Below the pieces are notes generated by a model. That model was not told the DNA's origin, did no database searches, and saw only the letters and a list, made by a program, of their open reading frames with translations. A stretch of DNA of 64,000 bases, from the NCBI RefSeq assembly GCF_023701945.1, contig NZ_JABAEF010000012.1:19922-83921 (forward strand). The letters are read 5' to 3'. The DNA is from Rhizobium sp. CG5. GTDB lineage: Bacteria; Pseudomonadota; Alphaproteobacteria; Rhizobiales; Rhizobiaceae. Positions within the stretch are counted from its first letter, which is position 1; each line of letters opens with the position of its first letter. The position numbers were made by a program, and so were the translations under genes. Shown piece by piece: positions 47,719-63,808 of the stretch.

Positions 47719-48051
47719 CTATGCGCTTTTCGCCAGGGCTTGCGCGATCGCTTCGGGATTGACGGCAATGACCTTGAGATAGGCGCGGGTCGGGGCGTCG
47801 GGTTCCGCTCGCCCCTGTTCCCAATCGCGCAGCGTGCCGAGCGGGATCTCATAACGCTCTGAAAACGCTTCCTGGGTCAGGCCGAGCGCGCGGCGGATGA
47901 TTTTGACCCGCGGCATGCGGGATGCGGCGCGCAACTGTTCCGTGGTCAGCGGCGGATTGTCGGGATCGGCAAGCGCATTGGCTTCCGCCTCGTCGTCGCT
48001 CATGGCGTCGAGATGCGCCCAATCCGTCCCGTCTATCTTCCTAGGTGGCAT
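47719..48051 (-). CDS. Helix-turn-helix antitoxin paired with BrnT
   Basis: The 110-residue protein combines an N-terminal BrnA-like segment (MPPRKIDGTDWAHLDAMSD) with an XRE-type helix-turn-helix (RRALGLTQEAFSERYEIPLG, then LRDWEQGRAEPD). It overlaps the upstream toxin gene by 11 bases. Usual BrnA proteins carry a ribbon-helix-helix fold, so the XRE domain is a variant. It should bind the toxin and repress the shared promoter. Confidence 0.8.
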   Translation of the reverse strand: MPPRKIDGTDWAHLDAMSDDEAEANALADPDNPPLTTEQLRAASRMPRVKIIRRALGLTQEAFSERYEIPLGTLRDWEQGRAEPDAPTRAYLKVIAVNPEAIAQALAKSA

Positions 48052-48316
48052 TTTCGTACTCCCGGCGTTCGGCGCGCGTCGCTCTTCGTGCGGAGATGAT
48101 GCGGACGATGTCGTTGCGTTCTGTATAGATCACCGTCAGGAAGACACCAGATGCGACCCCAATGATCCGACGCCGGACCTCTCCGTAGTTCAACGATCGC
48201 TCCTCGGTGTCGACAGCGAAGGGATCGTTGAAAACTTCCGAGGCGACAGCGAAGCTGACCCGGTGCTTTGCCAGATTGCTCAGGGCCTTTTGTTCATCCC
48301 ACTCGAAATCTAGCAT
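48041..48316 (-). CDS. brnT: BrnT-family ribonuclease toxin
   Basis: The 91-residue protein has the BrnT signature: FEWDEQKALSNLAKHRVSF at the start, VFNDPF, then RRIIGVASGVFLTVIYTERND and the C-terminal RIISARRATRAERREYE. BrnT is a RelE-like ribonuclease that blocks translation. It is the first gene of a toxin-antitoxin pair (toxin first, as in known brnTA). Confidence 0.88.
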   Translation of the reverse strand: MLDFEWDEQKALSNLAKHRVSFAVASEVFNDPFAVDTEERSLNYGEVRRRIIGVASGVFLTVIYTERNDIVRIISARRATRAERREYENAT

Positions 48317-48679
48317 GAGCGCCTACGGATTACCAGTAGTTGCGATAAACTCTAGTTTGGCGGATTTTCGGGTTTAGACACCTGTCAATGGATAGGGGGA
48401 TGTATTGGACACTGTCAATGCGGCGCCCGATCTCCTCCTTGCTGGGAAGAAAGCGAAATCGATGAATTGGCCCGATCAGGGCCAAACCTCAGATTTCGCA
48501 AGAGAGGGGCTGGGTCAGGTTTGTGCTAGGCGAACTGCGCCCCTCTCCAGGAAAATCTGAAGTTTAGGCGGCTTGCGCTCGCCTAAGCTTTCGATTTTCT
48601 ATCCTCCCCCGCAAGGGGTGAGGTGGGTGGCTTATTTCGGGTGGACATAGAGCAGAAACATTGCCCCGAATAGCTATAT
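48317..48679. repeat. Palindrome-rich gap at the edge of the accessory region
   Basis: No gene is seen in these 363 bases. They hold direct repeats ending TGTCAATG (48377-48390 and 48408-48420); a nested inverted repeat with TCAGATTT/AAATCTGA (48489-48496/48553-48560) outside GAGAGGGGC/GCCCCTCTC (48502-48510/48539-48547); hairpin TTAGGCG/CGCCTAA (48564-48570/48580-48586); and a CCTCCCCC-GCAA-GGGGTGAGG hairpin near 48602-48623. This mosaic looks like rhizobial intergenic repeat elements. Confidence 0.6.
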
Positions 48680-49468
48680 TTAACTGGAAATCTGGTCGCG
48701 CAACTTAGTCGCTTCACGCGGCCCTTCGGGCAAACTATCGAATATTTCGTCGATTTTTCTTGGCTGGGTTATCATCGCAGTTACGATGATATCGACCAAT
48801 CTGAACAATTCGAGGACAACTTCGTCATTGTCACCGAATTCAATTTCTCCTGGGTGGACCGCATTGTTTCCGACGATACGTACAATATCCAACGCCTTTA
48901 TGACTCTTGCGTCCAAGCCCTTTTTGACGAGGCTTTTGATATCGGTGTTGATATTCTCTCCAGACTCACCCAACTCGATGCAGAGCTTTTGAAGCGAAAG
49001 CCGCAGCATCGCCGCTGCGCATCTCGGCGACATAGGAAACACCTTTCTGGCTTCCTCTAAGAACGGAACGACAGACAGAGGCGTGTCAGGGTTCAGGGTG
49101 ATATCTACTACGAATTCTGGGTAGATAATTTTTCCGGCGAGCCAGATCGATATGTCGGAGCACGAAAAGCAAATGGACAAATCCATGTTGTGTAGTGGTC
49201 TAAAGTTGTCCCAAGAGTCCCCCGCGAATAAGAACGGCTTGCCGCTAAGACGTTGTGTGAAGAATTTTACAAGTTCGCCTTTTGTATCCGTGTTACGCTC
49301 ATTTGCCTTTATGTTTTCGATTACATCAGCGCTAGGCAGCCAGGGACGTTCGTCTTTTTCATATGGGCGGGAACCAATAGAATGCCAATCCTGATGGGCA
49401 TAAGCCCCGCAATGGGGGCAGCAAAATGAATCTTTACCAAGTGTCGGCGCTCGTGCTGCAGAGTTCAT
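48680..49468 (-). CDS. DUF4145-domain protein
   Basis: The 262-residue protein has an N-terminal zinc-like CPHCGAYAHQDW and a distal CFSC pair. The helical C-terminal half reads PRCAAAMLRLSLQKLCIELGE, then DIVRIVGNNAVHPGEI, the DUF4145 pattern. Such proteins occur in mobile and defence-rich regions; their function is not settled. The gene is visibly richer in A+T than its neighbours, a sign of transfer. It lies just outside the inferred transposon end. Confidence 0.75.
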   Translation of the reverse strand: MNSAARAPTLGKDSFCCPHCGAYAHQDWHSIGSRPYEKDERPWLPSADVIENIKANERNTDTKGELVKFFTQRLSGKPFLFAGDSWDNFRPLHNMDLSICFSCSDISIWLAGKIIYPEFVVDITLNPDTPLSVVPFLEEARKVFPMSPRCAAAMLRLSLQKLCIELGESGENINTDIKSLVKKGLDARVIKALDIVRIVGNNAVHPGEIEFGDNDEVVLELFRLVDIIVTAMITQPRKIDEIFDSLPEGPREATKLRDQISS

Positions 49469-49485
49469 CGATTACTCCATTAACC

Positions 49486-49519
49486 AAACCCCGCGCCGAA
49501 CTTAATCGACGCGGGGTTT
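49486..49519. terminator. Inverted repeat upstream of the DUF4145 gene
   Basis: AAACCCCGCG (49486-49495) and CGCGGGGTTT (49510-49519) form a perfect 10-bp stem with a 14-base loop. It lies between the DUF4145 start and the transposon end and could stop leftward read-through from the transposition operon. Confidence 0.6.
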
Positions 49520-49560
49520 ACTTTACCTCATCACAGGCGAGCGGAAATCGAAATGAGAAA

Positions 49561-49664
49561 ACCAATGAAGTACTGGCCAACTCACTCGTAACCCATTGAT
49601 TTGTGGTGGTCTCTCAGGAATTTCCCATTGAGGACTGGCCAACTTGGATGCAAGAACTGGCCAA
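49561..49664. repeat. Candidate TnsB-binding sites at the transposon end
   Basis: ACTGGCCAA occurs at 49571-49579, 49633-49641 and 49655-49663. The motif CCA(A/T)TGA precedes at 49561, 49592 and 49624, spaced 31-32 bases; the 49592 copy continues TTTGTGG and is degenerate. The pattern of repeated sites of about 20 bases at one end matches the arrangement of transposase sites in Tn7-type elements. Confidence 0.6.
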
Positions 49665-49680
49665 ATCGCTTGGCCAACAA

Positions 49681-49705
49681 AAAAGCCGGGCAGAGGGCCC
49701 GGCTT
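49681..49705 (-). terminator. Intrinsic terminator of the transposition operon
   Basis: AAAGCCGGGC (49681-49690) pairs with GCCCGGCTTT (49696-49705), loop AGAGG. On the minus strand the stem runs into TTTTTT, the correct direction for the operon that ends with tniQ 23 bases away. Confidence 0.88.
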
Positions 49706-49727
49706 TCTCCATCGAGGTCGGCTTCAA

Positions 49728-51554
49728 TCAGTAGGCAGTTTCAGTTTCCGACCGTCGATAGAACGGCATTTCCCCGGCGACAAAGATCGGAATCACGCCA
49801 CGACCGAAGAGTTCTTTTTCAACCGTCCAGGTTCTCAGGCCCGCCTGCGTTGAGAGGCTTCCGAGCGAAACGAACTCTCGCATGAACGCCGCCAGGTCTT
49901 TGGGATCGACGTAGTCTTGGAGATTCCGCGTCACAGGATTTCGCAATTTGACGGTCGGGATCCTCTTCTCCGCCAGCAGCACCCTTATGATTTTGCTCGA
50001 TGACGGCATCAGATTGACCAGTTTATGGATAGGGATGCCGTCGTGGTCTGCACCCGTCGTGTGTTCCTTTACTTCATCGATATCCACACGGATTGCCCCG
50101 AGGCCGTGCTCACCTGATGCCACGGCGACCCGTGCTAACTTGCCCCCGAACAGGAGCTCGATCAGCTTGCCGAACGTACAGATCGCTTTCTTCCTGGCGG
50201 CCTGCAGATCAATGAGACTTCCGTCATCTTCGCACGTTACGGCTGACTGCAATTTCCGCAGGAACTCCGTGATGTCCTCAGGTGAGTGACGGTTGACGAG
50301 TGCAAATGCCCCCGTCTCGTCGGCCACATCGGCATTGATGTAACCAAGTTTCACGAGTTGCTCGAACTGTGTGCCTTTGGCATTGAGTGCAGCCTTCGCT
50401 TCGTTTGTGCTCAGGCCCTTCTTTGCTTCGGTGACGAAGCTCTCCATGGTGCCGGCATCGACGAGTATCTTCTCGAACGTCCGCTTCGAGGCTACTTCAG
50501 TGATGAGTCCGGCCGCCGCAAGAAGCTTGGTGAGCCGCGCGGGATGAATATCGTACTCCCGGGAAGCAGAATGCACCGAGTGGATCCTGCGCTCGGTCAC
50601 GGGACCGAAGAATTCTTCACCGGGACCGAGGGGCAGGGTGTTGATTGCGACATCCCGCATGATGTGACGGATGGGATCATATTCATCGTCCTCGGTTTCG
50701 TATGCGAGCTTCTCGTAAAGCCGGCCGAAGAGGAAACGCCCGCCGAGATCGCTATTCTTGCGATAGAAGCTCTGTGATTTCCTGAGAAGCCAACCCCGGA
50801 ACTCGTCCGCGCCTCCGGAAAGCAGGTCGAATCCGGTGCCTGCCGCCGCCGACAGTTCCCGATTGCTCAGATCTTTGGCTTGGAAGCGGATGCCATGCCG
50901 CTCCGAGGCACCGACAATCTCGCAGAGCCGGACTGCAACATACAGGGGCAGGGTATCCAACCAGGGCGAGCCGGTTGGCGTCCCCCTGAGCCGAGCTTGA
51001 ACGTAGCCCTGTAGGCTGTCGGTATCCATGGCCTCCGCCTGAGACAGAAGGTCCTCAATGTTAGCTGCTGCGATCGCGAGGTTCACAGCGAAGTCGTGCA
51101 TGTACTGGCGCGCGTCCTCTCCTGTTGGCGTAATCAGCTTCGTGCCGTGGGTCTCGCAGGTTCTGATTGGATACACGAGCCATTCGATACGGCCATACGC
51201 TCTGAAACCCTTCCGGCCAGCGAGGTTACGCTCGTCGTCGCGAATGCATAATGGGCAGAGCCGGAGGCGGGACCGTTCCATGAGTGCGCGCGTGAGTCTC
51301 TGGCCGGAGACGGTGCTGATCCGGTTCTCGGTTACGATAACGCCTGGAGCAACGTTCGATTTCGGCACGCCCAGAACCGAAGCGAACTTCTGCACATCCA
51401 GATCGTCGCCAACGACCAGTCCCTGAAAACGGAAACCGAGGTCGTTTGCGAAGGATCGTGAATGGCGATATCCGCACGCGGCAGCTAGCCGGGAGCAGTA
51501 GCTGGCGATGGTTTCGCCAGCGTTGAAGGGAAGAAGTTCTGCAAGCCGGGTCAT
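49728..51554 (-). CDS. tniQ: TniQ/TnsD-family target-selection protein
   Basis: The 608-residue protein opens like TniQ proteins (LLPFNAGETIASYCSRLAAACG) and has a zinc-finger-like site Cys100, Cys103, Cys133, His136 (CPLC, CETH). Long TniQ/TnsD proteins bind the target DNA and recruit the TnsC ATPase. The large C-terminal part is a likely site-recognition region. It overlaps tnsC by four bases. Which chromosomal site it recognises is not evident; no tRNA or glmS gene lies beside the inferred end. Confidence 0.85.
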   Translation of the reverse strand: MTRLAELLPFNAGETIASYCSRLAAACGYRHSRSFANDLGFRFQGLVVGDDLDVQKFASVLGVPKSNVAPGVIVTENRISTVSGQRLTRALMERSRLRLCPLCIRDDERNLAGRKGFRAYGRIEWLVYPIRTCETHGTKLITPTGEDARQYMHDFAVNLAIAAANIEDLLSQAEAMDTDSLQGYVQARLRGTPTGSPWLDTLPLYVAVRLCEIVGASERHGIRFQAKDLSNRELSAAAGTGFDLLSGGADEFRGWLLRKSQSFYRKNSDLGGRFLFGRLYEKLAYETEDDEYDPIRHIMRDVAINTLPLGPGEEFFGPVTERRIHSVHSASREYDIHPARLTKLLAAAGLITEVASKRTFEKILVDAGTMESFVTEAKKGLSTNEAKAALNAKGTQFEQLVKLGYINADVADETGAFALVNRHSPEDITEFLRKLQSAVTCEDDGSLIDLQAARKKAICTFGKLIELLFGGKLARVAVASGEHGLGAIRVDIDEVKEHTTGADHDGIPIHKLVNLMPSSSKIIRVLLAEKRIPTVKLRNPVTRNLQDYVDPKDLAAFMREFVSLGSLSTQAGLRTWTVEKELFGRGVIPIFVAGEMPFYRRSETETAY

Positions 51555-52684
51555 TGAGGGCGTACTCCATATTTCGTTGCGTTCTTACCCTTCGATTTGA
51601 GGCGGGCTTCCTCCCAGGCTCGGTCGTCGTCGCGCAGCAGGGCCACTGCGGGTTCGAGTTCCTCCCAGTTGGTTGCTGTGAAAACGTTCTTGCTCGGCCT
51701 GCACCCTGAAAACGAGGTGTAGGTCTTGATGAAGTCGTCGAGCGCCACGTGCTCACGACTGTCGAGGATGGCCAGCTCGACCGCACCCCGGATCATCTGG
51801 ACGACGGAGCCGAATTCGCCGTCGCAGGCATGCGCCATTCTCCGGAGGAAGATGTCTTTGAGCTTTCGAGGATCAGGTTCCTCGTCCCCCGCCGCATAGC
51901 TGCCGAGATCGAAACGGAGTTCCATTCCTGCATGATCCACGACGACCGTTTCCAGGATGCTGTCGATGAGATCCACGCTCCCTTCCACGTTGACCGTGTC
52001 GAACGGGATGACAGTCCTGCGATTGTAGAGCTGCTTGCGGGCAAGGAAGCTCGCGAGCGGAGGTACACCCGCGAGGATGAGACGGACGGGCCAGTCGGGC
52101 ATCTGGGTGAGGGCCTTGAATGCGTCCCCAATGACCGTCGCCTGCCGGACATTAGCGGTCTCGATCGCGTTCTGCGCCTCGTCGATGACGACCCACATGA
52201 CCTTGTGCACCTTGAGAAGGCGTCGGAACAGAAGCCACGCCTCGTTCTCACGGATGCGTTCTGGTGGTGTGTGACCGAGAGCCTCTAGTCCGGCGATGGC
52301 AAGGAGGCGCGGCGTGCATGGCGAACCCGCCTCCATGAAGATGACGGGATGAATGGTCACACCATCCTCGTCAACATAGGAGGCCATCGCCTTGAGGCTG
52401 CGGACATGTTTCACGATCGCCGTCGTCTTCCCCGCTCCCGATCGACCGCACACGGCGACGATGCGCCGCTTGTCGGGCTTTCCGGTGATCCGCGTTGTCA
52501 CGCTTGCGACCAAGCCCATCAGGGCTTCCCTGAGGAGTTCGTCGCGATCGAGTGGGATGTATTTGTTGTATAGCTGAGAGATGCGGTCGGCGACCCCAAG
52601 GCGATCATCGCCGACGAGGCTGCGAACGCGGTCGATGGCAGCTTGGCTGCGGCGTGCTTCATGGTCTTTTTCGAAATCGGTCAT
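51551..52684 (-). CDS. TnsC/TniB-family AAA ATPase
   Basis: The 377-residue ATPase has Walker A GRSGAGKTT at 80-88 and Walker B VVIDEAQN at 165-172, with the sensor region LILAGVPPL after it. It should form the ATP-dependent filament linking TniQ-marked targets to the TnsB transposase. The gene lies 9 bases after tnsB and overlaps tniQ by four, so all are co-translated. Confidence 0.9.
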   Translation of the reverse strand: MTDFEKDHEARRSQAAIDRVRSLVGDDRLGVADRISQLYNKYIPLDRDELLREALMGLVASVTTRITGKPDKRRIVAVCGRSGAGKTTAIVKHVRSLKAMASYVDEDGVTIHPVIFMEAGSPCTPRLLAIAGLEALGHTPPERIRENEAWLLFRRLLKVHKVMWVVIDEAQNAIETANVRQATVIGDAFKALTQMPDWPVRLILAGVPPLASFLARKQLYNRRTVIPFDTVNVEGSVDLIDSILETVVVDHAGMELRFDLGSYAAGDEEPDPRKLKDIFLRRMAHACDGEFGSVVQMIRGAVELAILDSREHVALDDFIKTYTSFSGCRPSKNVFTATNWEELEPAVALLRDDDRAWEEARLKSKGKNATKYGVRPQ

Positions 52685-52693
52685 TTCATGCTC

Positions 52694-55018
52694 CTATTCG
52701 TCATCGAAGATGTCGTTGCTGATGCGGCGGACGACGGAGGTTTCCTTCGTGCCGTCTGGTGTAGTAGGGGTGCTGGGCTTGGCGGGCAGGGCGGCGGAAC
52801 CGAGAACAGGTCGGCCGCCCGTCTCAGCTTCCTGGCGGATTTCCTTCACGCTCCTCGTCTTGGCGTAGACGATCGGTTCGATCCTGAGCGCGGCGAACAG
52901 CTCGTCGGATGGATGCCATTCACCTGTGGGGCGGGGCTCGCCCTTTTCCGCACGGTCAACGACATCGAAGACGTGGTCCATTTTCTTCTCGAAGCGGAGA
53001 TAGTCCTCGTCAGTCAAGACCGGGCTGACGAGACCTGCTTCAAGCCGGGCCATGTCCGACTGCTTCTTGAGCCACGCAAACGTGTCGCGCATGGTCTGCC
53101 GGGAGACTTTCGCGTTTTCGGCGTTGAAGAGCTTGAGGCGCTCGGACGCCGCCAGCCACTGCCAGATGCTGACCCCTTCCAGCTCGCGATGGACGCAGGG
53201 AACCTCGATCCAGCCTTCCTGAGTCAGGATCGAAATCGCACCCAGGTCGTGATTGTTCACGCGGCCGACGAGTGGGATCTTGGAGTTCTTCCGCCTAATC
53301 TGCTGGAGCTCCTTGCTCTGGTAGTAGAGCCCCGCTACCCGATAGCCCTTCTTCGAGGCCTTGCGCGTCACGTAGGTGCCGAACAGGTGCGTGCGCAGAG
53401 CTCCGGTCGGACCCGGCTGGACACCATGATCACGCGCGAGTTCGAACCACGTGTCGAGGGGAGTGGCGCCGTTCAGCTCGGAATGCGGCGCATTGTGATA
53501 GCCGTCGACGCACCAGCGGACCATGCACTCCGCAACCTGGTCCGCGATCGTGTTCGCATGCGCCTCGGCGTCATAGTCGCCTTTCTCGGCGATCGATCCC
53601 CATGTGCGGCCGTCGAAGTAGTTGAACATCTGGTGGCTGAAGGTCTGGAACCAGCGTTCGATGAAACCGCGCCACGAGGCATCGCCGGCTCGTGGCAGGA
53701 AGATCTCGATCCCGGCATCATTGAGCACGACCCGATACGGTCGGTGAGCGAAGTAGACCGCGCTATCCACTGCCACGAATTCGTGCGTACCGCCCTGCGG
53801 CCACGGCGACTGGCATCCGAGACGTTGCGCGATTTCCGTCTTGTTGCGTGTGGACATTTCCAGCGCAGTCATTGCCGATTTCAACGACGGGGGCTCTGCA
53901 CTGACGTGTAGGGCGACGGTGCTCCGGCTCGCCACGCAGATCATCGCCGTGATCGTGAGACGGATCCGCTTGATCTTCTTGCGCTCTGCCTTCGACAACT
54001 TCTTCCAGATTCCGATCTTTACGAGAAGGGTCTGAAGGTCGGTCTCATGGTCGTCGCATTCGATCCGCTCGAGCGGGCGGATCACATCGATTCCGCCAGA
54101 TTCCGGCTGCCATTCACGACGGGCGGCTTCCTTCCCGTCGCGACCGAGATTGCGCCACATTTCCGGCTGAGCGTTGAAGCGGTTGCGGAGCGTCTCCGGG
54201 CACGGGATCCGGAGCTGGTCGTCCGGCCCCCGGTGCTTGTTTTCAGCCTCCATCTTCCGTTCCATCTCACGATGGATCGCCGCAAGATCCGGCTTCGTGG
54301 TCGAGCAGGCCTCGTGGATTGCCGCGCTGAGATGCACGAACTCGTCCGCCGTGAAATATTCGGGGCGATCGCGTCCGTAGTCATTCTTGAGGCAGATGGG
54401 GTCGAAGTCGTTCAGCTCCATCTCGAAGATCCAGCCTTTCACGGTCGAAGGCCGGGGCTCGAAGAGCGCAATGTTGGCCTTCGTGCGATACGTCAGGGCT
54501 TTAGAACCCGTTACACGGCTCTGAATTTCACGCCACTCGCGGGCGATCACCGGAATGATGCGAAGAAGAGGTTCCCGCGACTTGCTGACCACTGGAGGCT
54601 TGGGCAGGCCGTGGATACGGGCGAGCCGCCGCTGCTCCCTGTAGTCCGCCTGCATTTCGAGAAACTTCCGAACAAAGAACTCCTTACGCAAGACATCGTC
54701 CTGGTCGGCAGGGGACAGGGTCGACAGGCTGCTGGAGCCGGAGAGACGCGCTTTGGCCTTGCTCTTGCCGTAGTATTCGAACTCCACCGTCATTGGATTG
54801 CCAGTGCGGTTCAGGCGTACATTGAGGTCCGGCTGCGTGAAGCTTACGGTAGCGTTGGTCTCGTCCATGCGACGCAGGACTGCTCCGTTTCGGTCGCAGT
54901 AAAGCACGCAGTATTCGATGCCGAGATCCTTCACCCGAGCGTGCGCGGGAAGCCGGATGTAGGGAAGCGATACGGGATCGTGCTGGAGTGCGAGGATCTG
55001 TCTGAGGTCGGGCTGCAT
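52694..55018 (-). CDS. tnsB: TnsB/TniA-family DDE transposase
   Basis: The 774-residue protein is a Mu/Tn7-type integrase-fold transposase. The catalytic triad is readable as Asp322 (RIECDDHETDLQ), Asp418 (FVAVDSAVYF) and Glu454 (GFIERWFQ), that is DD35E. N-terminal residues 1-300 should carry the helix-turn-helix domains that bind the end repeats. The Mu-type C-terminal barrel and a Pro/Thr-rich tail ending DIFDDE follow; the tail probably contacts TnsC. It joins 3' ends of the element to target DNA. Confidence 0.92.
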   Translation of the reverse strand: MQPDLRQILALQHDPVSLPYIRLPAHARVKDLGIEYCVLYCDRNGAVLRRMDETNATVSFTQPDLNVRLNRTGNPMTVEFEYYGKSKAKARLSGSSSLSTLSPADQDDVLRKEFFVRKFLEMQADYREQRRLARIHGLPKPPVVSKSREPLLRIIPVIAREWREIQSRVTGSKALTYRTKANIALFEPRPSTVKGWIFEMELNDFDPICLKNDYGRDRPEYFTADEFVHLSAAIHEACSTTKPDLAAIHREMERKMEAENKHRGPDDQLRIPCPETLRNRFNAQPEMWRNLGRDGKEAARREWQPESGGIDVIRPLERIECDDHETDLQTLLVKIGIWKKLSKAERKKIKRIRLTITAMICVASRSTVALHVSAEPPSLKSAMTALEMSTRNKTEIAQRLGCQSPWPQGGTHEFVAVDSAVYFAHRPYRVVLNDAGIEIFLPRAGDASWRGFIERWFQTFSHQMFNYFDGRTWGSIAEKGDYDAEAHANTIADQVAECMVRWCVDGYHNAPHSELNGATPLDTWFELARDHGVQPGPTGALRTHLFGTYVTRKASKKGYRVAGLYYQSKELQQIRRKNSKIPLVGRVNNHDLGAISILTQEGWIEVPCVHRELEGVSIWQWLAASERLKLFNAENAKVSRQTMRDTFAWLKKQSDMARLEAGLVSPVLTDEDYLRFEKKMDHVFDVVDRAEKGEPRPTGEWHPSDELFAALRIEPIVYAKTRSVKEIRQEAETGGRPVLGSAALPAKPSTPTTPDGTKETSVVRRISNDIFDDE

Positions 55019-55027
55019 ATTGTCCTC

Positions 55028-55873
55028 TCAATTCACGTGGTTGAAGCGGACGAAAGGGGCGTCGATGAGCTTGAGGTCCGGGCGGACCGGCACGAGGATC
55101 TCGTCGTGGATCAGGCACCAGACCGCGTTGTGGCCGTAGGCTGGGATCTCCCACCCCGCGAGGAGATCTCGGATGTGGACGGTGCCGCTGAAGCGCGATG
55201 CGTATTCGCGAAGGCGGTCGTTGTCGGCCGCAACGGAATGCTTGAGCGCACGCAGGATGCTCATTGCATTCCAGCAGCGCGCGTCGGTGGCTTCCCGCTC
55301 GGTGATGATGGTGGCTCCGTCGGCGAAGCCGTGGGGCAGGTTCCGGTCCACGGTGCCGATGGTGTATTCCAGACCGTCCTTCTCCAGGAGGTAGGTCGGG
55401 CGCACTCCCACGACGATCAGCCTTCCATTTGCCAACGTTGCGCGGTAGTCGAATGTGTGGTGGGACGTGCCGTCCTCCTGCTGAACCGGAACTGCGGATG
55501 GTTGGTCTTCGACGAGCACGATGTGCTTGGAGGCGCACATCATGTATGCGAGGTTCCGCTCGTAGGTGCTCGAGTACGTGATTGCCTTGCGCGTTTTGCC
55601 GTTGACCATGGTGCCGCGGCTGTGGCCCTTGGTACGGGCAGGATACCACCTGGAAGGGGTGGCCTCTTCGGTCGGCCGCCATACCCAGGGAATGCTGGTT
55701 AGGCCGGAATAATCCTCTTCGTCGTGCGGATCGGATTCGAACGGCACGTAACGGCCGGAGAGGGGTTCGCTTGCTTTCAGGAAGACGGTTTCGGTGGGCA
55801 GGGGAAGGAGGGTACGGTCGAAGCCGGATTCCAGTTCCTTCATGTATCGGATGACTTGGCGAATGCGTGTCAT
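55028..55873 (-). CDS. TnsA-like endonuclease protein with altered motif
   Basis: Start at 55873 (MTRIRQVIRYMKEL) behind AAAGGA gives 281 residues; an earlier in-frame ATG at 55903 lacks a site. A TnsA-type core is visible at about 100-160: helix SSTYERNLAYMM (Glu105), VEDQPSAV, and HHTFDYRATLANGR (Asp142), followed by VGVRP where the nuclease motif usually has Glu/Ala and a Lys (VEVK or AVKP). The Lys-to-Arg change may weaken 5'-strand cleavage. It starts the operon, 9 bases before tnsB. Confidence 0.65.
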   Translation of the reverse strand: MTRIRQVIRYMKELESGFDRTLLPLPTETVFLKASEPLSGRYVPFESDPHDEEDYSGLTSIPWVWRPTEEATPSRWYPARTKGHSRGTMVNGKTRKAITYSSTYERNLAYMMCASKHIVLVEDQPSAVPVQQEDGTSHHTFDYRATLANGRLIVVGVRPTYLLEKDGLEYTIGTVDRNLPHGFADGATIITEREATDARCWNAMSILRALKHSVAADNDRLREYASRFSGTVHIRDLLAGWEIPAYGHNAVWCLIHDEILVPVRPDLKLIDAPFVRFNHVN

Positions 55874-56056
55874 TTCGAATTCCTTTGGGACGCAACTCTC
55901 CATTCTCTGCGGGCAGTCGCCCGCGGGGCTGAAGGGTCTGTTGTTGGGATGGGCATGGCTCCGCCGCTCCGCGCGGTGGGCCGCACGGCGAGGCCAGTTT
56001 TGCGATGTGTGGGAAAATATGCTGCTGCCTGGGTCAGGCGACCTGGCGCGGCAGGG

Positions 56057-56509
56057 TCAGTTTATGGGGTGCTGCTGCCGAAGTTCGGCGAGTCTCTCTG
56101 ACACCTCCGGCTCCCTCATGCCCTCTGCCCACATCATTTTGCGTAGGATCCCGAAAGGGCCTTTTTCCATCATCAAGGGTTCTCGAAGCAGATGCTTCGA
56201 GATTTCGGCGTCGTCGCGGAACGAGCGCGCCAGCTTCGAGAAAACTTCGATCGATGGGACCGGCAGGCTGATACCCAGCCGCCGCAGGGTGGGACCGGCC
56301 TCCTGGTCGATCATGGAGATCATCGCGTCGTGCGCCATTTCATCATCGATTTCCGGAAACTGGGCCTGCTGGATAATGACCTTCAGCGTGATCGCGAAGG
56401 TCGGTGCGAGCATGGGGTCGCCTTGCAGGACACTGCCTGACCACCGAAGGACGGAGGGATGGAAGTCTGCAAGGGTCGCGTAGTAGGCTGTCATTTCTTC
56501 ATGAAACAT
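56057..56509 (-). CDS. Hypothetical helical protein
   Basis: The 150-residue product is mostly helical and acidic, without signal peptide or cysteine. It shows no motif that I recognise; PGPTLRRLGI-like and EVSERLAELRQQ stretches suggest amphipathic helices. It points the same way as the transposition genes and precedes them by about 180 bases, so it could be expressed with them, but no function can be assigned. Confidence 0.55.
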   Translation of the reverse strand: MFHEEMTAYYATLADFHPSVLRWSGSVLQGDPMLAPTFAITLKVIIQQAQFPEIDDEMAHDAMISMIDQEAGPTLRRLGISLPVPSIEVFSKLARSFRDDAEISKHLLREPLMMEKGPFGILRKMMWAEGMREPEVSERLAELRQQHPIN

Positions 56510-56551
56510 GTTGGATACCTTGTTAACGGGGTGGGTTGGCGATCATGGAGG

Positions 56552-56881
56552 TCAACTGGCAGTTCTGCCCGGCGGCGCCACTTCCGTCGCCACAGTCTTC
56601 GTGCGAAGCAGGCCGAGAAATGCCTCGTACGAGGGAAATCGCAGTGGCGGAGCATCGAGCTGCTCGAGCTTGCTGCTCATGTCGGTCAGCAGAGAAGCCA
56701 TGAATTCCCACGCCTCGCGTTGGCGAGAGGGAAAATCCATTGCGATGCCGAGTGCTTCCTGGATGGTCGCTTGCTCGAGTTCGTCGTATTGGAACTCCCG
56801 GCGGAAATCGGCGGTTCTCGATCCCTCGGTGAGGATGTCGAGGGCGTTTTGCATGAGATCGCAGGTTCTACGATTGTCCAT
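56552..56881 (-). CDS. Hypothetical small helical protein
   Basis: Start at 56881 (MDNRRTCDLMQNALDIL) has GGGAG seven bases before it; longer in-frame starts at 56899 and 57037 do not. The 109-residue protein is helical (DELEQATIQEALGIAMDFP, then REAWEFMASLLTDMSSKLEQL). It is unrecognised. It forms a pair with the gene at 56057-56509, 42 bases away. Confidence 0.5.
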   Translation of the reverse strand: MDNRRTCDLMQNALDILTEGSRTADFRREFQYDELEQATIQEALGIAMDFPSRQREAWEFMASLLTDMSSKLEQLDAPPLRFPSYEAFLGLLRTKTVATEVAPPGRTAS

Positions 56882-57827
56882 TTCAATCTCCCTATTCATG
56901 AAACGTTTGTGTGTGCGGCCGGATTCGGTTACAGAATCCAGCATTAGCGGTTGAGCCGGTCCTCGGTGTGAGACGAAGTGTTGGGGGCGCATTGGTGCCG
57001 CGAACAGCGGGCACGGTTCTTCGATGGCAGGCTTCACTGTCTGAATCCTCCTGGTTGTCGTGATGCAGGACGCACGATGCCGTCCCGACGGTGGACGTCG
57101 GGATCATGGTCTCAGATGTTTGGGAAGCAGGGTTGCTCGCCAGGCAGCCGCTGGGCTTACGCCCTAGGCATGGCCTGGGTCAGGTGCTAGCAGCATATAT
57201 TACGCATGTGTGGTTCCTTTCGATCATCAGCACAAACTGAGCTTCCGGGGCATGGAGCCTCGGGTCGGAACAAGTACATACTCGGATTTTTTTCGTCCGT
57301 ATGGAGGGAAAATGAAGGTCGGTTCACTTTTTTTTGGATGACCCGGATACTTCAGTCGGTCCAGGCGCCCGCGCAATGGCGCGCACCGTCCGCTAGACGA
57401 CGATCCTCGACCGAAGGGCTATTCGCCCGGCTATGGCTGCGAAATGGTAGGTCATTGTGCTACTCGCCAGCTTCAATGAAGAATATTCAGGACGAAAAAT
57501 CGCCTGACGTCAACGGTGCTTGCTATAGAAAATTCCAGATCGACCTTGGGTGTGGTCGGTAATATTCTTTCTCTCTTTCCCATTTCGCGCGTGTCAACTT
57601 TATGTGCGAATCCTTCGTTGCGAATATTGTCGATGATCTTCATATACTTATCCGGTTGATACTCTCTCCGCGATCTCAGCGAAGATAGCTCGATGACTCC
57701 GGTTGAATTTCTCGTCCCGACACGGCCTTCATCGAGACGGGCCGAGACACTGTCGGTATCCGTTGTCGATTGCATCACCACCTCGCAGCTTTCTGGTGAG
57801 CAAGACGGCTCACAAGGGAGGCTGACG
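56882..57827. other. Gene-free region between divergent genes
   Basis: These 946 bases contain short open frames with no binding sites or recognisable content. The outward-directed promoters of the leftward small-gene pair and of the rightward 226-residue gene must lie here. Poly-T stretches (57283-57290, 57327-57336) are present but no clear terminator stem. It contains one copy of the 12-base string GCCTGGGTCAGG (57173-57184) also found at 56027-56038. Confidence 0.45.
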
Positions 57828-58508
57828 ATGCGGGAAAACGTGAAGGGCGTGGTAGCGAAGATCGAGCAGGCGCTCGGTCCGGCGTACAGGAGCCTTGGAT
57901 TGACCATGGTGACCGAGGAGAATGCAGGAGAACTGGCAGTTCGTTTCCAGGCCGGCCCCAGGGTCTTCTCGCCTATGTCACTCTGGTTCGGCGTGGACGT
58001 AGACCGCGATGTCACTCTTCAGGATGCGACGGTTGCCGTGAATTGCTACGATCTTATCGAGGTTGGCGACAACGGGTGGATCCACTGGTGGTACGTGCAG
58101 GATACGAGCCATCGCGTAGAAGGCACCGACGAGGAGATACTCGCGGGCATGAAAGAGGAGATGATGACGTATACCGTCATCGACGTCGACTATTCCCGGC
58201 CCAGGATCATCCAATCCACCGCTTTCGCGCTTGCGTGGGAAGAGGCGGTTCGTGGTACCACTCAAGTCAACGAGGTCGAGGAAGTGATCGTCGAACGTGA
58301 CAGCGTCCGGGAGACGGAGAGCTTCGTTTTCGAGGATGTGCTGGGCCGAGAGTTTCGAGTCTCCTATCCTTTTGATGAAGAGCTTCCGGCGCTCATCACC
58401 ATCGATGGCAGGAAGGTGCTGGAGATCCGCCAGCACGAAAATGCGGAAATGGAACAGGTATTAGACGTGCTCTTTGACCCGAGGAATCTGCCAAGGCACA
58501 GCCGTTAG
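57828..58508 (+). CDS. Hypothetical protein
   Basis: ATG 57828 (MRENVKGVVAKIEQALGP) follows GGGAGG (57816-57821) and gives 226 residues; an in-frame start at 57693 has no such signal. The protein has mixed alpha/beta character, many acidic residues (DEEILAGMKEEMMTYTVIDV) and no signal peptide or membrane helix. I do not recognise it. It is convergent with the methyltransferase gene, with 39 bases between their stops. Confidence 0.6.
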   Translation: MRENVKGVVAKIEQALGPAYRSLGLTMVTEENAGELAVRFQAGPRVFSPMSLWFGVDVDRDVTLQDATVAVNCYDLIEVGDNGWIHWWYVQDTSHRVEGTDEEILAGMKEEMMTYTVIDVDYSRPRIIQSTAFALAWEEAVRGTTQVNEVEEVIVERDSVRETESFVFEDVLGREFRVSYPFDEELPALITIDGRKVLEIRQHENAEMEQVLDVLFDPRNLPRHSR

Positions 58509-58547
58509 ACGAGGGGACTGCCCTCTGCTTCCTAGAGTGTCTAAGGT

Positions 58548-60698
58548 TTATGCGTCGTCCCATGTCCGATCGCCGGGATATGGTTCGCCTTCCGGCCAGC
58601 CGTCACCCGGCATGGCGACGCCTCGCTTGAACCTCGTCTTCCAGGTCTCGGATGGCACACCATCATCCGGCTCGTACCGCCCCGCATTCAGATTGATCTT
58701 CGGCGGTGTTGCACCGATCGAGCCGCGTGGAAGAGGCGAAGTCATCAAGCTCCTCCGATCAAAGGTGACCCCGGTAAGTGCCGTGTAAATCGACTGCGCG
58801 ATCGATCGTGCTAGTCGTGGAGGGAATGCGTTGGCGATCTGCCGGATTTGCTGGCTGCGATCTCCGGAGAATACCCACTCGTCCGGAAAGTTCTGGAGGC
58901 GTTGGAGCATCCGGATCGTGAGACTTGGAAGATAGTCGATGCCTGTGATATCGGCAGGGGTCGGCGGGCCGCCGGCTAGCTTTCTGACATCGAAGCCGGC
59001 TGCCGCCCAGGCCTTGGCCGTTTTGTCTTGAGCGCCGTTGGCGATCCCGGCAATGGTCGGCGTGCATCGTTCACCGTATTCCGTGATCCAGTGGTCTGCC
59101 CACTCGTCGAAACGCTTCTGTTCAGCGGAGTAACCAGCGCCGGTTTTTCCATCGCGAGTGCGCGCCTCCGGAGGTGTTCGATGCACCATCAACAGGTCCT
59201 CCAGCACATTGACGGTGCTCGCGTCAGCGGTTCGGGGCATGTTGAAACGATGCAACAGACCGTCTGCAAAGCCGACAATGATAATGCGTGTCCGAGCTTG
59301 CCCGATGCCGAAGTCCTTGCCCTTTAGTTTTTGGATCGTGACTTCGTAGCCGAGATCGCGGAACGCGGCGAGTGCCTGGGCCCGGTGGTCTGAATGCCTG
59401 TCGAACATGAAACCCGGAACGTTCTCGAAGAAGAAAGCCTTGGGTTGCGCCTCTCGTACGACTCGAACGGCTTCGTTCAGCAGGTCGCGGTCGTCCATCT
59501 TTCCCAGTCCGTCACCGCCCTGGGAATAAGACAAGCAGGGAATTCCTCCGGCCACCAGGTCGACACCACGATAGCGGACGAAGGATTCATTTCTGACGTC
59601 CTTCCTGATAACCTTCCAACGGTACCAGTTCCGTCGAAGCGTGGCTGCCGCGTCCTCGTCGTTCTCGTAGAGTGCGACAGGGTCGAATCCTGCGGCATGG
59701 AGGCCAATGGATTGCCCGCCGGCACCAGCGCAGATCTCCACGCAGTTCAGACGGAACGGAGGTCGGGCAACCGGATCCTTCCAGGGGCTTCCGATCTGCT
59801 TCGTGTCGGGAGACAGGAACACCAGCCCCTCCCAGATGTCGAATCCGATGGTTTGGGATTCGTCTGTCTGGAAATCGAAGCCCATCGGTTCTCCGAAACG
59901 TCCGGTCGCAAAGGATTTCAGCGACAGGTGCGCCTTGGCAAGGCCGGGGCCGAGTTCATCGCCCCGGGCGAGGGCGGACTGCCATTCGTGTCCTGGAAGG
60001 TGCTGGCACCCATAGACCCATTCGAATTCATCGAGTGCGGCGGCAGCCTCGGATCGAATCCTTGCATGGCTGGCCTTGTAGTCGGCACTTTCTATGTCGA
60101 CAACGTACTCGTAGGCTCCCCAGCCTTCGGGTACCAGCAGGTGCTCCTCGAAGAATTCGTGGATCATGTCGAGCAACTCGTCCACGCGCCGTTCCAGGGT
60201 CCTTGCGGTCAACCTCGCGGTTTGAGCTGCCCTGTCTTCGAGCGCGGACAGCCGATCATCCCTGCGGTTCTCGTCGTATGACCGGGACATGCGGCGGAGA
60301 TCGGTCTTGAGAGCGTCGACATCATCGGTATCCAGCCGCAGCCCGGCATCAATGCGGGTGAAGGCTTCGATGCGGGTGGCTTCGTCCGCTTGCGCGATCG
60401 CCATCAGCGCGGAGGGCGGCAGGTATACCTTGGCGATGGTTTTCTCCCGCCCGCGGAAAATTTCCCCGAAGCGCAGCAGCGTATTGGCCTCGGCCCGGTC
60501 TATGGCGCACTCCGTGCTCAGGAATTCTCGCAAGTCGATTTCCGGGGCGGTGTGTTCGAGTTCCTCGATGAGTTTGCCAAGCTTGAAGAATCGTCCCCCG
60601 ATTTCGGCATGCACCTTCAAGATTTCCCGTTTCGCCTTACCCATGGCCTTCGCCCGGGCATCATCGAGCACCGGCTTGTCTTTTACTTTCCGCGCCAT
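58548..60698 (-). CDS. C5-cytosine DNA methyltransferase with N-terminal extension
   Basis: The 716-residue protein holds a complete m5C methyltransferase at about 317-640: motif I VEICAGAGGQS (320-330), catalytic Pro-Cys in AGGIPCLSYSQ (Cys388), FFFENVPGF (ENV 425-427), GQARTRIIIVGF (467-471 QxRxR) and motif X NAFPP (623-627). The 300-residue N-terminal part is helical and unlike a simple methyltransferase; it could be a DNA-binding or phage-type domain. No restriction enzyme gene is adjacent, so this is a solitary methylase, possibly protective or regulatory. Confidence 0.9.
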   Translation of the reverse strand: MARKVKDKPVLDDARAKAMGKAKREILKVHAEIGGRFFKLGKLIEELEHTAPEIDLREFLSTECAIDRAEANTLLRFGEIFRGREKTIAKVYLPPSALMAIAQADEATRIEAFTRIDAGLRLDTDDVDALKTDLRRMSRSYDENRRDDRLSALEDRAAQTARLTARTLERRVDELLDMIHEFFEEHLLVPEGWGAYEYVVDIESADYKASHARIRSEAAAALDEFEWVYGCQHLPGHEWQSALARGDELGPGLAKAHLSLKSFATGRFGEPMGFDFQTDESQTIGFDIWEGLVFLSPDTKQIGSPWKDPVARPPFRLNCVEICAGAGGQSIGLHAAGFDPVALYENDEDAAATLRRNWYRWKVIRKDVRNESFVRYRGVDLVAGGIPCLSYSQGGDGLGKMDDRDLLNEAVRVVREAQPKAFFFENVPGFMFDRHSDHRAQALAAFRDLGYEVTIQKLKGKDFGIGQARTRIIIVGFADGLLHRFNMPRTADASTVNVLEDLLMVHRTPPEARTRDGKTGAGYSAEQKRFDEWADHWITEYGERCTPTIAGIANGAQDKTAKAWAAAGFDVRKLAGGPPTPADITGIDYLPSLTIRMLQRLQNFPDEWVFSGDRSQQIRQIANAFPPRLARSIAQSIYTALTGVTFDRRSLMTSPLPRGSIGATPPKINLNAGRYEPDDGVPSETWKTRFKRGVAMPGDGWPEGEPYPGDRTWDDA

Positions 60699-61010
60699 CG
60701 CAGGCTCTCCGTTTTTGGTAGTCGTACCGTGGCGGAGTTGCTGTCCCGGAAAGGGATTGATTAAAACTCTAGCTATCCTATTCGGAGATAGCCGGTCACG
60801 TCAGCGGGAGGGTGTCCGGCGCCTTCAGGAGCTTGGGCAGATCCTATGTGCTCAAGCGGCTCTGGCGCTGATGGCAATCACTACCCGATTTCGGAAAACC
60901 CCACGTGGGCGTTGTAGCGGCGTCCTTCAGGCACGCTGCAAAATGGGTTAGTATGTAGGCCAAAGCTCGTAACATCCCCGCGACGGCGGACTGTCGAAAT
61001 CGGAGTTGGC
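60699..61010. other. Gap upstream of the methyltransferase gene
   Basis: The 312 bases hold no supported gene. A small inverted repeat GCTATC/GATAGC (60772-60777/60787-60792) lies about 75 bases upstream of the methyltransferase start and might be an operator. Confidence 0.4.
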
Positions 61011-61211
61011 ATGCCAGACCATGGGAAGAAGGATGAGGGCGAAGCCGGCGACGCTGGCTCGATCGGGGAAATGGCGGACGACAATGAAACGTTTGGCGAT
61101 GCACTGTCAAAGGTGGGATTCGAGTGGGCCAAGGTCGGCCGCAAGATCGTATCCCAGGGGAAACGCAGGGAAAGTCTGAAGAGGTGGGGTTCCAAGGAGC
61201 CGGACAAGTAG
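61011..61211 (+). CDS. Possible small protein
   Basis: This 66-residue frame starts at ATG 61011 behind CGGAG and is hydrophilic and rich in Lys, Gly and Glu (MPDHGKKDEGEAGDAGSIGE). No family is recognised. Its good start signal and location between two supported genes are the only evidence, so it may not be real. Confidence 0.35.
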   Translation: MPDHGKKDEGEAGDAGSIGEMADDNETFGDALSKVGFEWAKVGRKIVSQGKRRESLKRWGSKEPDK

Positions 61212-61223
61212 AACTTCGGTGCG

Positions 61224-61838
61224 CTATTGTGGGTCGCTTCCCGGGACGACCGAACCGTAGGCGCTGGGGCTGGTGAGCTTGGGCAGAGCCTTTTCGTGCG
61301 GGTCGGGCTCGGTTGGATCGAAATAGGGTAGCGGCACCTCGAAACCGGGATCCACGAACCATCGTGCCTTCATGGGATGATACACGCCAGGCAGACGGAA
61401 ATGCTCGTTGATCTCGAGAAAATCGTTGACGTTCGCTGTGAGGATCGGCATTCGGTGGACGATGGCGACGGCCGATATCATCAAATCGTGTCCGAGCCTG
61501 TTGCTCTTCTGGCCGTGCTGAACGGTCCACATGTGCCGGAGGCTGGGAACAGATGTCATCCCGGCGTAGATCGTTGCCACCTCTGTGGTCATTTCCGGAA
61601 ACGGAAACGCGATGGAGATGAGTTCATCGACCCAGTTGGTGATAAGAAGCGCTCTATGGGGATCGTCCTTCACCCGGAGGTGGGCTCCGCGCTGCAGTTC
61701 TGCTATGACCGGATAGCAGAGCGCAAGACGATGTGTGCCGACTCGCAAAAGCCAGGGGCGCAGTCCCGGCGGCGATTTCACACGGCCCATAAGGCTGACG
61801 ATATCCGTATCCATTAGAAGAATAGGGTCTGTCCGCAC
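61224..61838 (-). CDS. PIN-domain (VapC-like) protein
   Basis: The 204-residue frame starts at GTG 61838 (MRTDPILLMDTDI), or alternatively at ATG 61814. The PIN acidic residues are seen in LMDTDIVSLM, the glutamate of VIAELQRG, LGHDLMISA and ILTANVNDF, the pattern of VapC-type ribonucleases. A Pro-rich C-terminal extension (PYFDPTEPDPHEKALPKL) is longer than in standard VapC. The likely partner is divergently encoded at 61947. A toxin role is probable, not shown. Confidence 0.75.
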   Translation of the reverse strand: MRTDPILLMDTDIVSLMGRVKSPPGLRPWLLRVGTHRLALCYPVIAELQRGAHLRVKDDPHRALLITNWVDELISIAFPFPEMTTEVATIYAGMTSVPSLRHMWTVQHGQKSNRLGHDLMISAVAIVHRMPILTANVNDFLEINEHFRLPGVYHPMKARWFVDPGFEVPLPYFDPTEPDPHEKALPKLTSPSAYGSVVPGSDPQ

Positions 61839-61946
61839 TGTAAAAACCTGTCGTCAGGGATCTTTATGTTGATTAACTTCGAAGTGGGATTCAATTCGAT
61901 CATTATACTGCTTAGGCTGGCATGAAGTCGTCCGAGGGAGGCCCAG

Positions 61947-62150
61947 ATGACGCATAACTCCGATTGGCAGAGACACGAGGCCGAGGCCCGCATCCAGGAG
62001 GTTCTGGACGCGGCTAAAGCACGCGGCACTCAGAGAGTGGTCGACACCGACGGCAGATTTGACGTGACGTTCGTACCTGGGAAACGGACACTGGAAGAGT
62101 TGTTCTCCCGTCCCGGTCCCCTTCCGGACGATGACGATATCAATCTCTAA
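61947..62150 (+). CDS. Phd/YefM-like antitoxin candidate
   Basis: The 67-residue protein follows a GAGGGAGG site. It reads HEAEARIQEVLDAAKARGTQ, then VPGKRTLEELFSRPGPLPDD, like the DNA-binding and toxin-binding parts of Phd-type antitoxins. It is divergent from the PIN gene with a 108-base spacer, which is unusual since such pairs are mostly co-directional. The pairing is inferred. Confidence 0.55.
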   Translation: MTHNSDWQRHEAEARIQEVLDAAKARGTQRVVDTDGRFDVTFVPGKRTLEELFSRPGPLPDDDDINL

Positions 62151-63171
62151 TCAAGTTTTCTGCAACTACGGTGCGGAACCGTAACCGGCGATGGCAAAAC
62201 CAACAAGATGGGGGGGGCGATTTTCGATTACTTCGGCCTACCGCACTGGTTGAAATGATTGAATCGTTGGCGCCGACGGTGACGGAAATTCGCAAAAGCA
62301 CCGTACAAGCTTCTCGTTTGCAGGAGCAGCGCCATTACCGTCCCGTATCCTCACTTCCCTTACCGGAGGTGGGAGGGCTTTGCGCGGCTCAATCCGCCAC
62401 AGCGAGCTGATGTCAGGGTGGCTCAGATGCGGCGCTCTGCGATTAGTCTCGTCAAGGAACAACGACCTGGATCGCGAAAATGGCGATGGGTAACGGTCGC
62501 TGCTTCGAGGCTTGAACCGATCAGTTCCGCTGCGGCGCATCAAGGAAAGAAACTGAACTATGGCAAAGGCCTCAGATCAATCTGGGGGCAGTGAAGATAA
62601 CGCAATCGATTGGAGATCTTTGGCATTGATGCTCCCCAGCGGGGTCAGCCGGTTGAAAGGAGTTATTCTATCCTTGTGCTAAAGGTATTTAGAGCAATTC
62701 CAGCAAAATTGGGATCCGGTTTCCCGTTCGGAATTGCGTTAAAACAAAGAGATAGAGCACTGCAGGCGCTTCTGTTTTCGCCGGAATTTCTCAAGTTGGC
62801 CCCGTTGCAGGCGATTCCGTCGAGCGAGGAAGCCGGAGTTCTCCATGTCAGGGGTTGCTTCAGGCTGCATCCCATAATCGTGCCGGCGAGGCAGGATCGA
62901 TCGGGATCCTTTTCGGACGATGCCGCGATGGATGGTCAATCCGCCGCGATGCGCGACCAGACATGAAAGCGAGATGGTTGCTACCGTCGGGATGTTGTAT
63001 CCCGGCTTCGCGTGCCTCAGGAAATTGCAGGCCCACAATTGACGTCCGTGAGTTTGTTCTCTATATGGTCCAGACATGAGAAAACTCCGAACCCTCACCC
63101 TCCGAATACGATGACGGATCACGGGACCGATCCCGTGGAGCCACAAGTTCCGTATTCTTGGAGTGATGGTC
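62151..63171. other. Long gene-poor region before the second TnsA-like gene
   Basis: About one kilobase with no supported gene. It contains the RIME-type repeat (62691-62758), short frames without start signals, a run GGGGGGGG near 62211, and a small palindrome CACGGG/CCCGTG (63120-63125/63132-63137) about 35 bases ahead of the next gene. It looks like decayed or regulatory sequence. Confidence 0.45.
62691..62758. repeat. RIME-type rhizobial intergenic palindrome
   Basis: The element runs from AGAGCAATTCCAGC to AACAAAGAGATAGAGC and has 8-bp inverted arms GCAATTCC (62694-62701) and GGAATTGC (62730-62737) with an inner GGGA/TCCC pair. This strongly resembles the abundant rhizobial intergenic mosaic element as I remember it, and supports a Rhizobiales origin. 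Confidence 0.75.
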
Positions 63172-63798
63172 ATGAAGACTGGATTCGCGCATGCCGCAGG
63201 CGATGATGCTTGCGATTTCCGCAATATTTACAAGCCCTACCCGCCATACCTGACTTTGAAATGCATCGGAGATCCGCTGTTCCGCAGCCAGCGTGTCCGA
63301 GATTACGCGTGCCTGCTCGACCTTGACCCGGACGTCATCTCCTGGAGATGCACGCCGGAAGCGATCGTCAACCAGAGCGGGGCCGCCCGGCCACGATGGT
63401 GGCATGTCGACCTGGCCGTCGAAACGTCGTCCGAGGCGCGCTTAGTCGAGATCTGGCAGACAAGTACCGGAGGACCCTCCTGGCTTCCAAGGGTCGCCGA
63501 ACAGATGGGCTACCGGCTCCAGCCCGTTTCGATGCTCGAGCTCGATCAGATTCGTCTCCAAAACTCCAAGGACCTTATGCGGTACGTCGGTTCCGAGGTG
63601 CCTCTCGGGGATCGCGTGCGAATCTTTGCCGCACTGGATGAGATGGGCACGCTGACCCTGACCGAATGCCTTTCCGCAATTCGCGAGAGCAAATCCATGC
63701 ACACCATCGCTTCGATGGTCCTTTCTGGACTTCTCGAAGTAGATCTTGATGCCGCGCTCATCGGTCCGGACACCGTGGTCCGCCGCGCCGCGAAGTAG
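63172..63798 (+). CDS. Second TnsA-like protein, degenerate active site
   Basis: ATG 63172 (MKTGFAHAAGDDACDFRN) has GGAG nine bases upstream; the GTG and ATG at 63163 and 63166 are too close to it. The 208-residue product follows the TnsA-fold pattern: SQRVRDYACLLDLDPDVISW (39-58), RWWHVDLAVET (Asp80) and ARLVEIWQT (Glu93). The helix glutamate and final Lys of the nuclease motif are absent. A winged-helix-like C-terminal region (MGTLTLTECLSAIR, VLSGLLEVDL) follows. It may be structural or inactive, or belong to another element. Confidence 0.55.
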   Translation: MKTGFAHAAGDDACDFRNIYKPYPPYLTLKCIGDPLFRSQRVRDYACLLDLDPDVISWRCTPEAIVNQSGAARPRWWHVDLAVETSSEARLVEIWQTSTGGPSWLPRVAEQMGYRLQPVSMLELDQIRLQNSKDLMRYVGSEVPLGDRVRIFAALDEMGTLTLTECLSAIRESKSMHTIASMVLSGLLEVDLDAALIGPDTVVRRAAK

Positions 63799-63808
63799 GG
63801 AGGCGGCC

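Follow-up and report, generated by a model that had tools for sequence, protein, structure and literature searches.

The window analyzed here is a stretch of 64,000 bp from contig NZ_JABAEF010000012.1 (C3) in the 6.5-Mb genome of Rhizobium sp. CG5 (G000). Its right-hand part (49554–64000) belongs to a transposon with Tn7-type transposition genes, the far end of which lies next to nrdJ, the gene of a B12-dependent ribonucleotide reductase. The rest of the element continues to window coordinate 93566, and the analysis was extended rightward past the window edge.

The tns Operon and Its Products

Four leftward open reading frames (ORFs), overlapping or nearly abutting, make up the tns operon (49728–55903, minus strand). 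They encode a TniQ/TnsD-like target selector of 608 amino acids (aa) with a CCCH zinc motif (49728–51554), the AAA+ regulator TnsC of 377 aa (51551–52684), the DDE transposase TnsB of 774 aa (52694–55018), and a predicted TnsA-like endonuclease of 291 aa with the residues E115, D152, and R168 (55028–55903). In Pfam, matches above the cut-off were obtained for TniQ (PF06527, E = 2e-12) and for TnsC (AAA_22, E = 1e-12; TniB, E = 7e-11). The only Pfam match of TnsB, to Mu-transpos_C (E = 7e-4), scored 20.1 bits, just under the cut-off of 21.7 bits. At the same time, a profile built from 13 aligned TnsB rows retrieved nine sequences of solved structure, the top three of which are TnsAB or TnsB (E = 5e-67 to 2e-54).

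The identities of TnsB, TnsC, and TniQ can be considered settled, since the alignments with relatives display invariant DDE, Walker, and CCCH motifs. These comprise D322, D418, and E454 of TnsB (13 of 13 rows, with 35 residues separating D418 and E454), the Walker A/B residues G80, S82, G85, K86, D168, and E169 of TnsC (13 of 13 rows), and C100, C103, C133, and H136 of TniQ (12 of 12 rows). Hence, the initial annotation of this DNA, which had read here a Tn7-type TnsABC–TniQ operon of four leftward genes with a DD35E triad, Walker motifs, and a zinc-finger TniQ, agrees with the ORFs, the profile searches, and the alignments; the loss of conservation of the triad, named there as a ground for doubt, is not what the rows display. 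Against solved structures, TniQ produced five TniQ matches, all of them weak and confined to its first 42 residues.

TnsA gave no Pfam match, and its TnsA-like match in NCBIfam remained below the cut-off (E = 2e-6); E115 and D152 are kept in all 10 aligned rows. A comparison of TnsA with solved structures yielded no TnsA structure and three matches, all to interleukin-4, which were taken as chance. Fold models of TnsA and TniQ, each made from three close sequences, were discarded (mean predicted local distance difference test score, pLDDT, of 33 for both).

The Ends of the Element and the Uninterrupted Site

The element extends from 49554 to 93566 (G000:C3:113487), i.e., over 44,013 bp, and its right end is situated 29.6 kb beyond the window edge. 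It starts with TGAGAAA and ends with TTTCTCA, so that both termini read TGAGAAA inward. The left end (49554–49680, plus strand) carries TGGCCA repeats, candidate TnsB sites, at 49574, 49636, 49658, and 49671; the right end mirrors it with TGGCCA at 93499, 93521, and 93541, the two arrays being inverted relative to each other. The terminal 130 bp thus contain four copies on the left and three on the right. At least three copies occur in 11 of 4388 130-bp windows inside the element and in none of those in the flanks, where stretches of 45 kb and 26 kb were tested. Similar left ends were seen in the loci L046 and L047. A search for the right end inside the window with the left-end repeat gave no further match, upstream of tnsA included. 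Just inside the left end, a hairpin followed by a T run (49681–49708, minus strand) was noticed by eye as a possible terminator of the tns operon; a terminator consensus scan of the left end lent it no support, returning one site (49700–49683) against 0.7 expected by chance.

The element is flanked on both sides by a perfect 5-bp duplication, CGAAA (49549–49553 and, outside the window, 93567–93571). The flanks joined by a single CGAAA align without a break to the DNA downstream of nrdJ in two relatives, G023 (L033) and G013 (L035), the clear match on the side away from nrdJ being only about 20 bp long, with differing intergenic DNA beyond. Homology to the nrdJ region starts at 93567 for G027 and G013 and at 93569 for G023. 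These comparisons bear on several further points of the initial annotation. The candidate end that it had placed on the operon side proved to be the exact left terminus, preceded by the duplicated CGAAA, and the comparison with empty sites that it had called for yielded two uninterrupted relatives and the 5-bp duplication, at variance with a block lacking boundaries in all relatives. The extent of 49554–55873 holds for its left limit only, as the element runs about 38 kb further, to 93566. The location beside a ribosomal cluster has to be abandoned: the immediate neighbor is nrdJ, and rplQ, matched at 34947–35297, is about 14 kb away. The target site, described there as unknown, can now be given as the 3' end of nrdJ.

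Insertion Just Downstream of nrdJ

A spacer of 27 bp separates the nrdJ stop codon from the right end; the tns-distal end is the one that faces this gene. Since nrdJ was matched in all 36 sampled genomes of the genus, it is regarded as native; the match reaches the 3' end of the gene in all but one of them (G004). A 251-base query composed of the right end and the nrdJ tail was matched in 60 of 63 genus genomes. The right end itself was matched in eight of the 63, four of which fit the position 26–27 bp from nrdJ (G000, Ciceribacter lividus G441, G438, and G007).

Overall, seven distinct cases are known in Rhizobiaceae in which a right end is located 26–27 bp past the stop of nrdJ or of an nrdJ-like sequence: G000, C. 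lividus, Metarhizobium album (G626), G007, G438 (26 bp past the nrdJ stop), G524, and G589. A pattern combining the nrdJ tail with TGAGAAA and allowing for a spacer of 23–31 bp was found in 5 of 394 genomes of the family (G000, G007, G524, G626, and G589), invariably with a spacer of 26–27 bp; the reversed control gave no matches. According to a hand calculation, about 0.2 matches of this kind would be expected by chance. Among 385 genomes of the class, only the window's own genome matched this pattern. When the DNA of the right end was searched for in 397 genomes belonging to the order, the only match besides that in the own genome was one of 26 bases, taken as chance. Across the seven cases, pairwise identity averages 0.27 for the spacer and 0.78 for the final 60 bp of the gene. 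Five of the seven have clear repeat arrays, with two or three exact TGGCCA copies in the first 110 bp.

Related Elements in Rhizobiaceae

The scan for TniQ relatives led to two named loci of this family, in C. lividus (82% identity) and in M. album (79%; Rhizobium album in NCBI). The elements of both species share the tnsA–tnsB–tnsC–tniQ order and a similar left end, and the flank beyond this end holds a gene read by eye as rarA-like. In C. lividus, where the element spans two contigs, the right end is 27 bp from nrdJ, and the duplication CTTAT is found at both ends. The element of M. album (35,972 bp, on a single contig) ends 26 bp from nrdJ and has a duplication that agrees in four of five bases after a one-base shift.

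On contig C28 of G007, a right end is separated by 27 bp from the stop codon that closes a copy of the nrdJ tail reading VRNGTCTKCRTCGASRGCY. This copy, 62–75% identical to other tails, is about 0.3 kb from a tRNA-Arg gene; the nrdJ match of the same genome, on C2, lacks such a right end. The right end together with a Pycsar-type cyclase gene is 89% identical to the window's element over 1.26 kb. Either about 60 bp are enough as a target, or the copy is the remnant of a second nrdJ that has kept its last 60 bp and lost its body; in the latter case, the 27-bp spacing holds but is less telling on the minimal target.

Proposed Mechanism and Its Alternatives

Judging from these sequence comparisons, the element is very probably a 44-kb Tn7-like transposon in which the long TniQ serves as a TnsD-type selector and nrdJ as the attachment gene. 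The sequences themselves establish the two ends, the duplication, the uninterrupted sites, the spacing of 26–27 bp in seven cases, and the absence of conservation in the spacer. In the mechanism proposed, TniQ would bind inside the final ~60 bp of the nrdJ reading frame, which encode the conserved Cys-rich tail (here VRNGTCEKCDTCGSTSGCS). TnsC would bridge the nrdJ-bound TniQ to TnsB and TnsA sitting on the TGGCCA arrays of the ends. TnsB, as the putative strand-transfer enzyme, would join the ends to the DNA at a point slightly more than 20 bp behind the nrdJ stop, generating the 5-bp duplication and leaving nrdJ intact, with TnsA acting as the second-strand nuclease. The element may be active at present.

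A number of observations weigh against this reading. In four of the eight genus genomes where a right end was matched, it is not 26–27 bp from nrdJ. In G011, the element resides at parE (so identified by eye), with one of its ends directly adjoining the stop of this gene; in G434, which has a TniQ of about 31% identity, 148 bp separate the right end from nrdJ, and the palindrome-like site discussed below is still present; G013 has two right ends, 4.0 and 4.5 kb from nrdJ; and the right end of G450 is degenerate. Within the seven fitting cases, the ends of G438 and G524 are degenerate as well, with no and one exact TGGCCA in the first 110 bp, respectively. A full tns operon accompanies the nrdJ end in only three of the seven (G000, M. 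album, and C. lividus, the last split over two contigs). With the TnsB profile, no TnsB was found in G524 and G450; in G438 and G589, none adjoins the nrdJ end, and in G007, the only one found is distant and on another contig. The right ends near nrdJ with no TnsB nearby in G524 (L109), G589 (L111), and G438 (L102) are possibly scars of past visits. As to TnsA, the third motif in its own clade is G-V-R168 (over the 10 aligned rows, five have R and five K at this position). In Tn7, this motif is Q-x-K. In view of this difference in sequence, cut-and-paste transposition is only putative.

The alternatives differ in which of these facts they accommodate. The block might be an immobile, domesticated defense island with relic tns genes, as its heavy defense cargo and the retention of only the right end at nrdJ in several relatives could suggest. 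This is unlikely, given that each of the four tns genes has an open reading frame, conservation holds for the key residues checked save for the TnsA lysine, and both ends are preserved along with a perfect duplication. It is also quite unlikely that all copies go back to one insertion downstream of nrdJ in an ancestor, passed on by descent or by homologous recombination via the conserved flanks, with a TniQ having no particular affinity for nrdJ. The three complete copies do all occupy the nrdJ–rarA neighborhood (rarA read by eye), and nrdJ is conserved enough for recombination, but the duplications read in the nrdJ sense differ (TTTCG, CTTAT, and TGAA followed by T or C), and the 26–27 bp spacers are unrelated, as their mean identity of 0.27 indicates. 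Moreover, the left and right duplications of any one copy have the same bases at 5/5, 5/5, and 4/5 positions, as separate events predict. Among 35 other genus genomes searched, only G011 has a TnsB of more than 60% identity; the element is therefore patchy rather than inherited by all.

Recognition of the target through palindrome-like DNA at the insertion point (GGAAATCGAAATTTCC) instead of the gene is highly improbable. Such a sequence is present at the sites of G000 and G013 and, in an altered form, in G023 and G434; still, the insertion points of C. lividus, M. album, G007, G438, G524, and G589 are unrelated in sequence, and the other nrdJ-downstream sequences compared do not show the palindrome.

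In the sister element of G011, TnsC, TnsB, and TnsA are 71, 62, and 63% identical to those of the window's element, and TniQ is 44% identical and lacks approximately the last 110 residues. The two ends of this element are on two contigs and share the flanking sequence CCTCA. Its tnsA (L039:17096–17930) is spread over two frames and may be broken or misassembled. We consider it probable that nrdJ represents a new Tn7-like attachment gene, that TniQ reads the codons of the Cys tail and needs no more than about 60 bp, that the element of G007 used a displaced, degenerate tail copy by the tRNA-Arg gene, and that exchange or divergence of TniQ in the sister element re-aimed a related TnsABC from nrdJ to parE. 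The end of a conserved core gene would then join the list of docking sites of the Tn7 family. The two elements, with TnsA/B/C 62–71% identical, would offer a matched pair (nrdJ vs. parE) for mapping the part of TniQ that sets the target. Homing to nrdJ would also account for the presence of a defense island behind this gene in the window's genome.

In plasmids, TniQ was matched in 49 records, all below 35% identity; the single exception is a probable relic in Rhizobium sp. T136, a piece of 99 residues with 61% identity. Four pattern stretches for TnsB relatives were retrieved from viral contigs, none of them confirmed.

Comparison with Known Systems

Elements of this kind are already known. 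Tn7, like the element described here, makes a 5-bp duplication and combines TnsA/B/C with a TniQ-family selector bearing the CCCH zinc motif. The termini of Tn7 are TGT/ACA, whereas those of the window's element are TGA/TCA, and the attachment gene is nrdJ, not glmS. The layout differs from that of Tn7 as well: here, the tns operon is directed at the closer end, with the target gene beyond the distant one. According to PMC2918618, TnsD of Tn7 binds the last 36 bp of glmS, and insertion takes place ~20 bp past the stop, the sequence of the insertion point being unimportant. Both elements are thus found shortly behind the stop codon of a conserved gene, irrespective of the spacer sequence.

For loci with dual TniQ–TnsD proteins, the main text of Faure et al. 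links a length above 400 aa with direct target selection, and the 608-aa TniQ of the window exceeds this mark (PMC10293859). In the type I-F3 CRISPR-associated transposon (CAST; CRISPR, clustered regularly interspaced short palindromic repeats) Tn7017, TniQ directs insertion beside the conserved gene parE, as stated in the main text of PMC11406308. The sister element in G011 is likewise at parE (read by eye). Since parE is a known TniQ-targeted site, the G011 case is easy to accept, and nrdJ appears as a natural addition. In contrast to Tn7017, the window's element has one long TniQ and nrdJ as the target. A Pfam scan of 19 of its proteins, a set that does not cover every ORF up to 93566, revealed neither a Cas gene nor TnsE. 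No CRISPR array was present among the repeats shown for 47800–64000. Transposons of the Tn5053/Tn402 type (TniA, TniB, TniQ, TniR) possess homologs of TnsB, TnsC, and TniQ and the resolvase TniR, and are not known to carry TnsA. Their target is the resolution site of plasmids, as given in the main text of PMC11406308. Unlike them, the element considered here features a TnsA-like gene and a gene-end target, with no resolvase among the 19 proteins scanned.

Defense-loaded Tn7-like elements with inverted arrays of TnsB sites were described by Benler et al. in 2021 (main text of PMC8649781), and the window's element resembles them in its defense cargo and inverted arrays of candidate TnsB sites. 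Druantia, nrdJ, and ribonucleotide are not mentioned in that main text. The main texts of PMC10293859 and PMC8649781 contain neither nrdJ nor ribonucleotide, and that of PMC11406308 neither nrd nor ribonucleotide; an entry in their supplementary tables is possible. A literature search for Tn7-like or TniQ together with nrdJ found no report, so nrdJ as an attachment gene does not appear in the literature searched.

Other Genes of the Element

Beside tnsA, a 150-aa protein with no assigned function (56057–56509, minus strand) has homologs in the elements of C. lividus, M. album, and G011 and is a candidate regulator or second selector. Two more proteins with no assigned function, of 161 aa (56552–57037, minus strand) and 271 aa (57693–58508, plus strand), have homologs in the elements of C. 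lividus and M. album. They are followed by a C5-cytosine DNA methyltransferase of 716 aa (58548–60698, minus strand), which may be a core component rather than cargo. Its homolog in M. album (93%) adjoins the tns genes, and homologs of 32–34% identity share a contig with tns genes in G011, G013, and G434. A PIN-like protein (61224–61838, minus strand) had sub-cut-off profile matches only. A protein of 209 aa (63169–63798, plus strand) has no match in Pfam or PADLOC and is followed by an AAA/M41 protease-like gene (L018:1734–3590). Its homologs occur on the tns contigs of G013 (70%) and G434 (57%), and its likeness to TnsA was noted by eye only.

Past the window, the element harbors genes matching Druantia type II, with profile scores of 2082 bits for DruE2, 116 bits for DruF2, and 264 bits for DruM2, the last of these in a C5 methyltransferase. 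It also carries a PDC-S37-like helicase–nuclease and a PDC-S06-like ATPase. Near the right end, matches to a Pycsar cyclase (785 bits) and, with it, a PycTM effector were obtained.

Neighborhood outside the Element

To the left of the element, a two-gene pair resembling helix-turn-helix/toxin–antitoxin systems (47719–48316; relatives in L031–L034) was detected, presumably of the BrnT/BrnA-like type. Its homologs are found within ~2 kb of nrdJ in G029, G033, and G023 (in the latter, the antitoxin part). An intergenic stretch of ~150–220 bp (48420–48641) recurs downstream of nrdJ in G005, G010, G027, and G026 (L041–L044), in some of them in multiple copies. In G023, a different accessory gene (L033:1074–2048), which we take to be DUF4062-like, lies between nrdJ and the antitoxin gene; hence, the interval between these two genes may be a hot spot of insertion.

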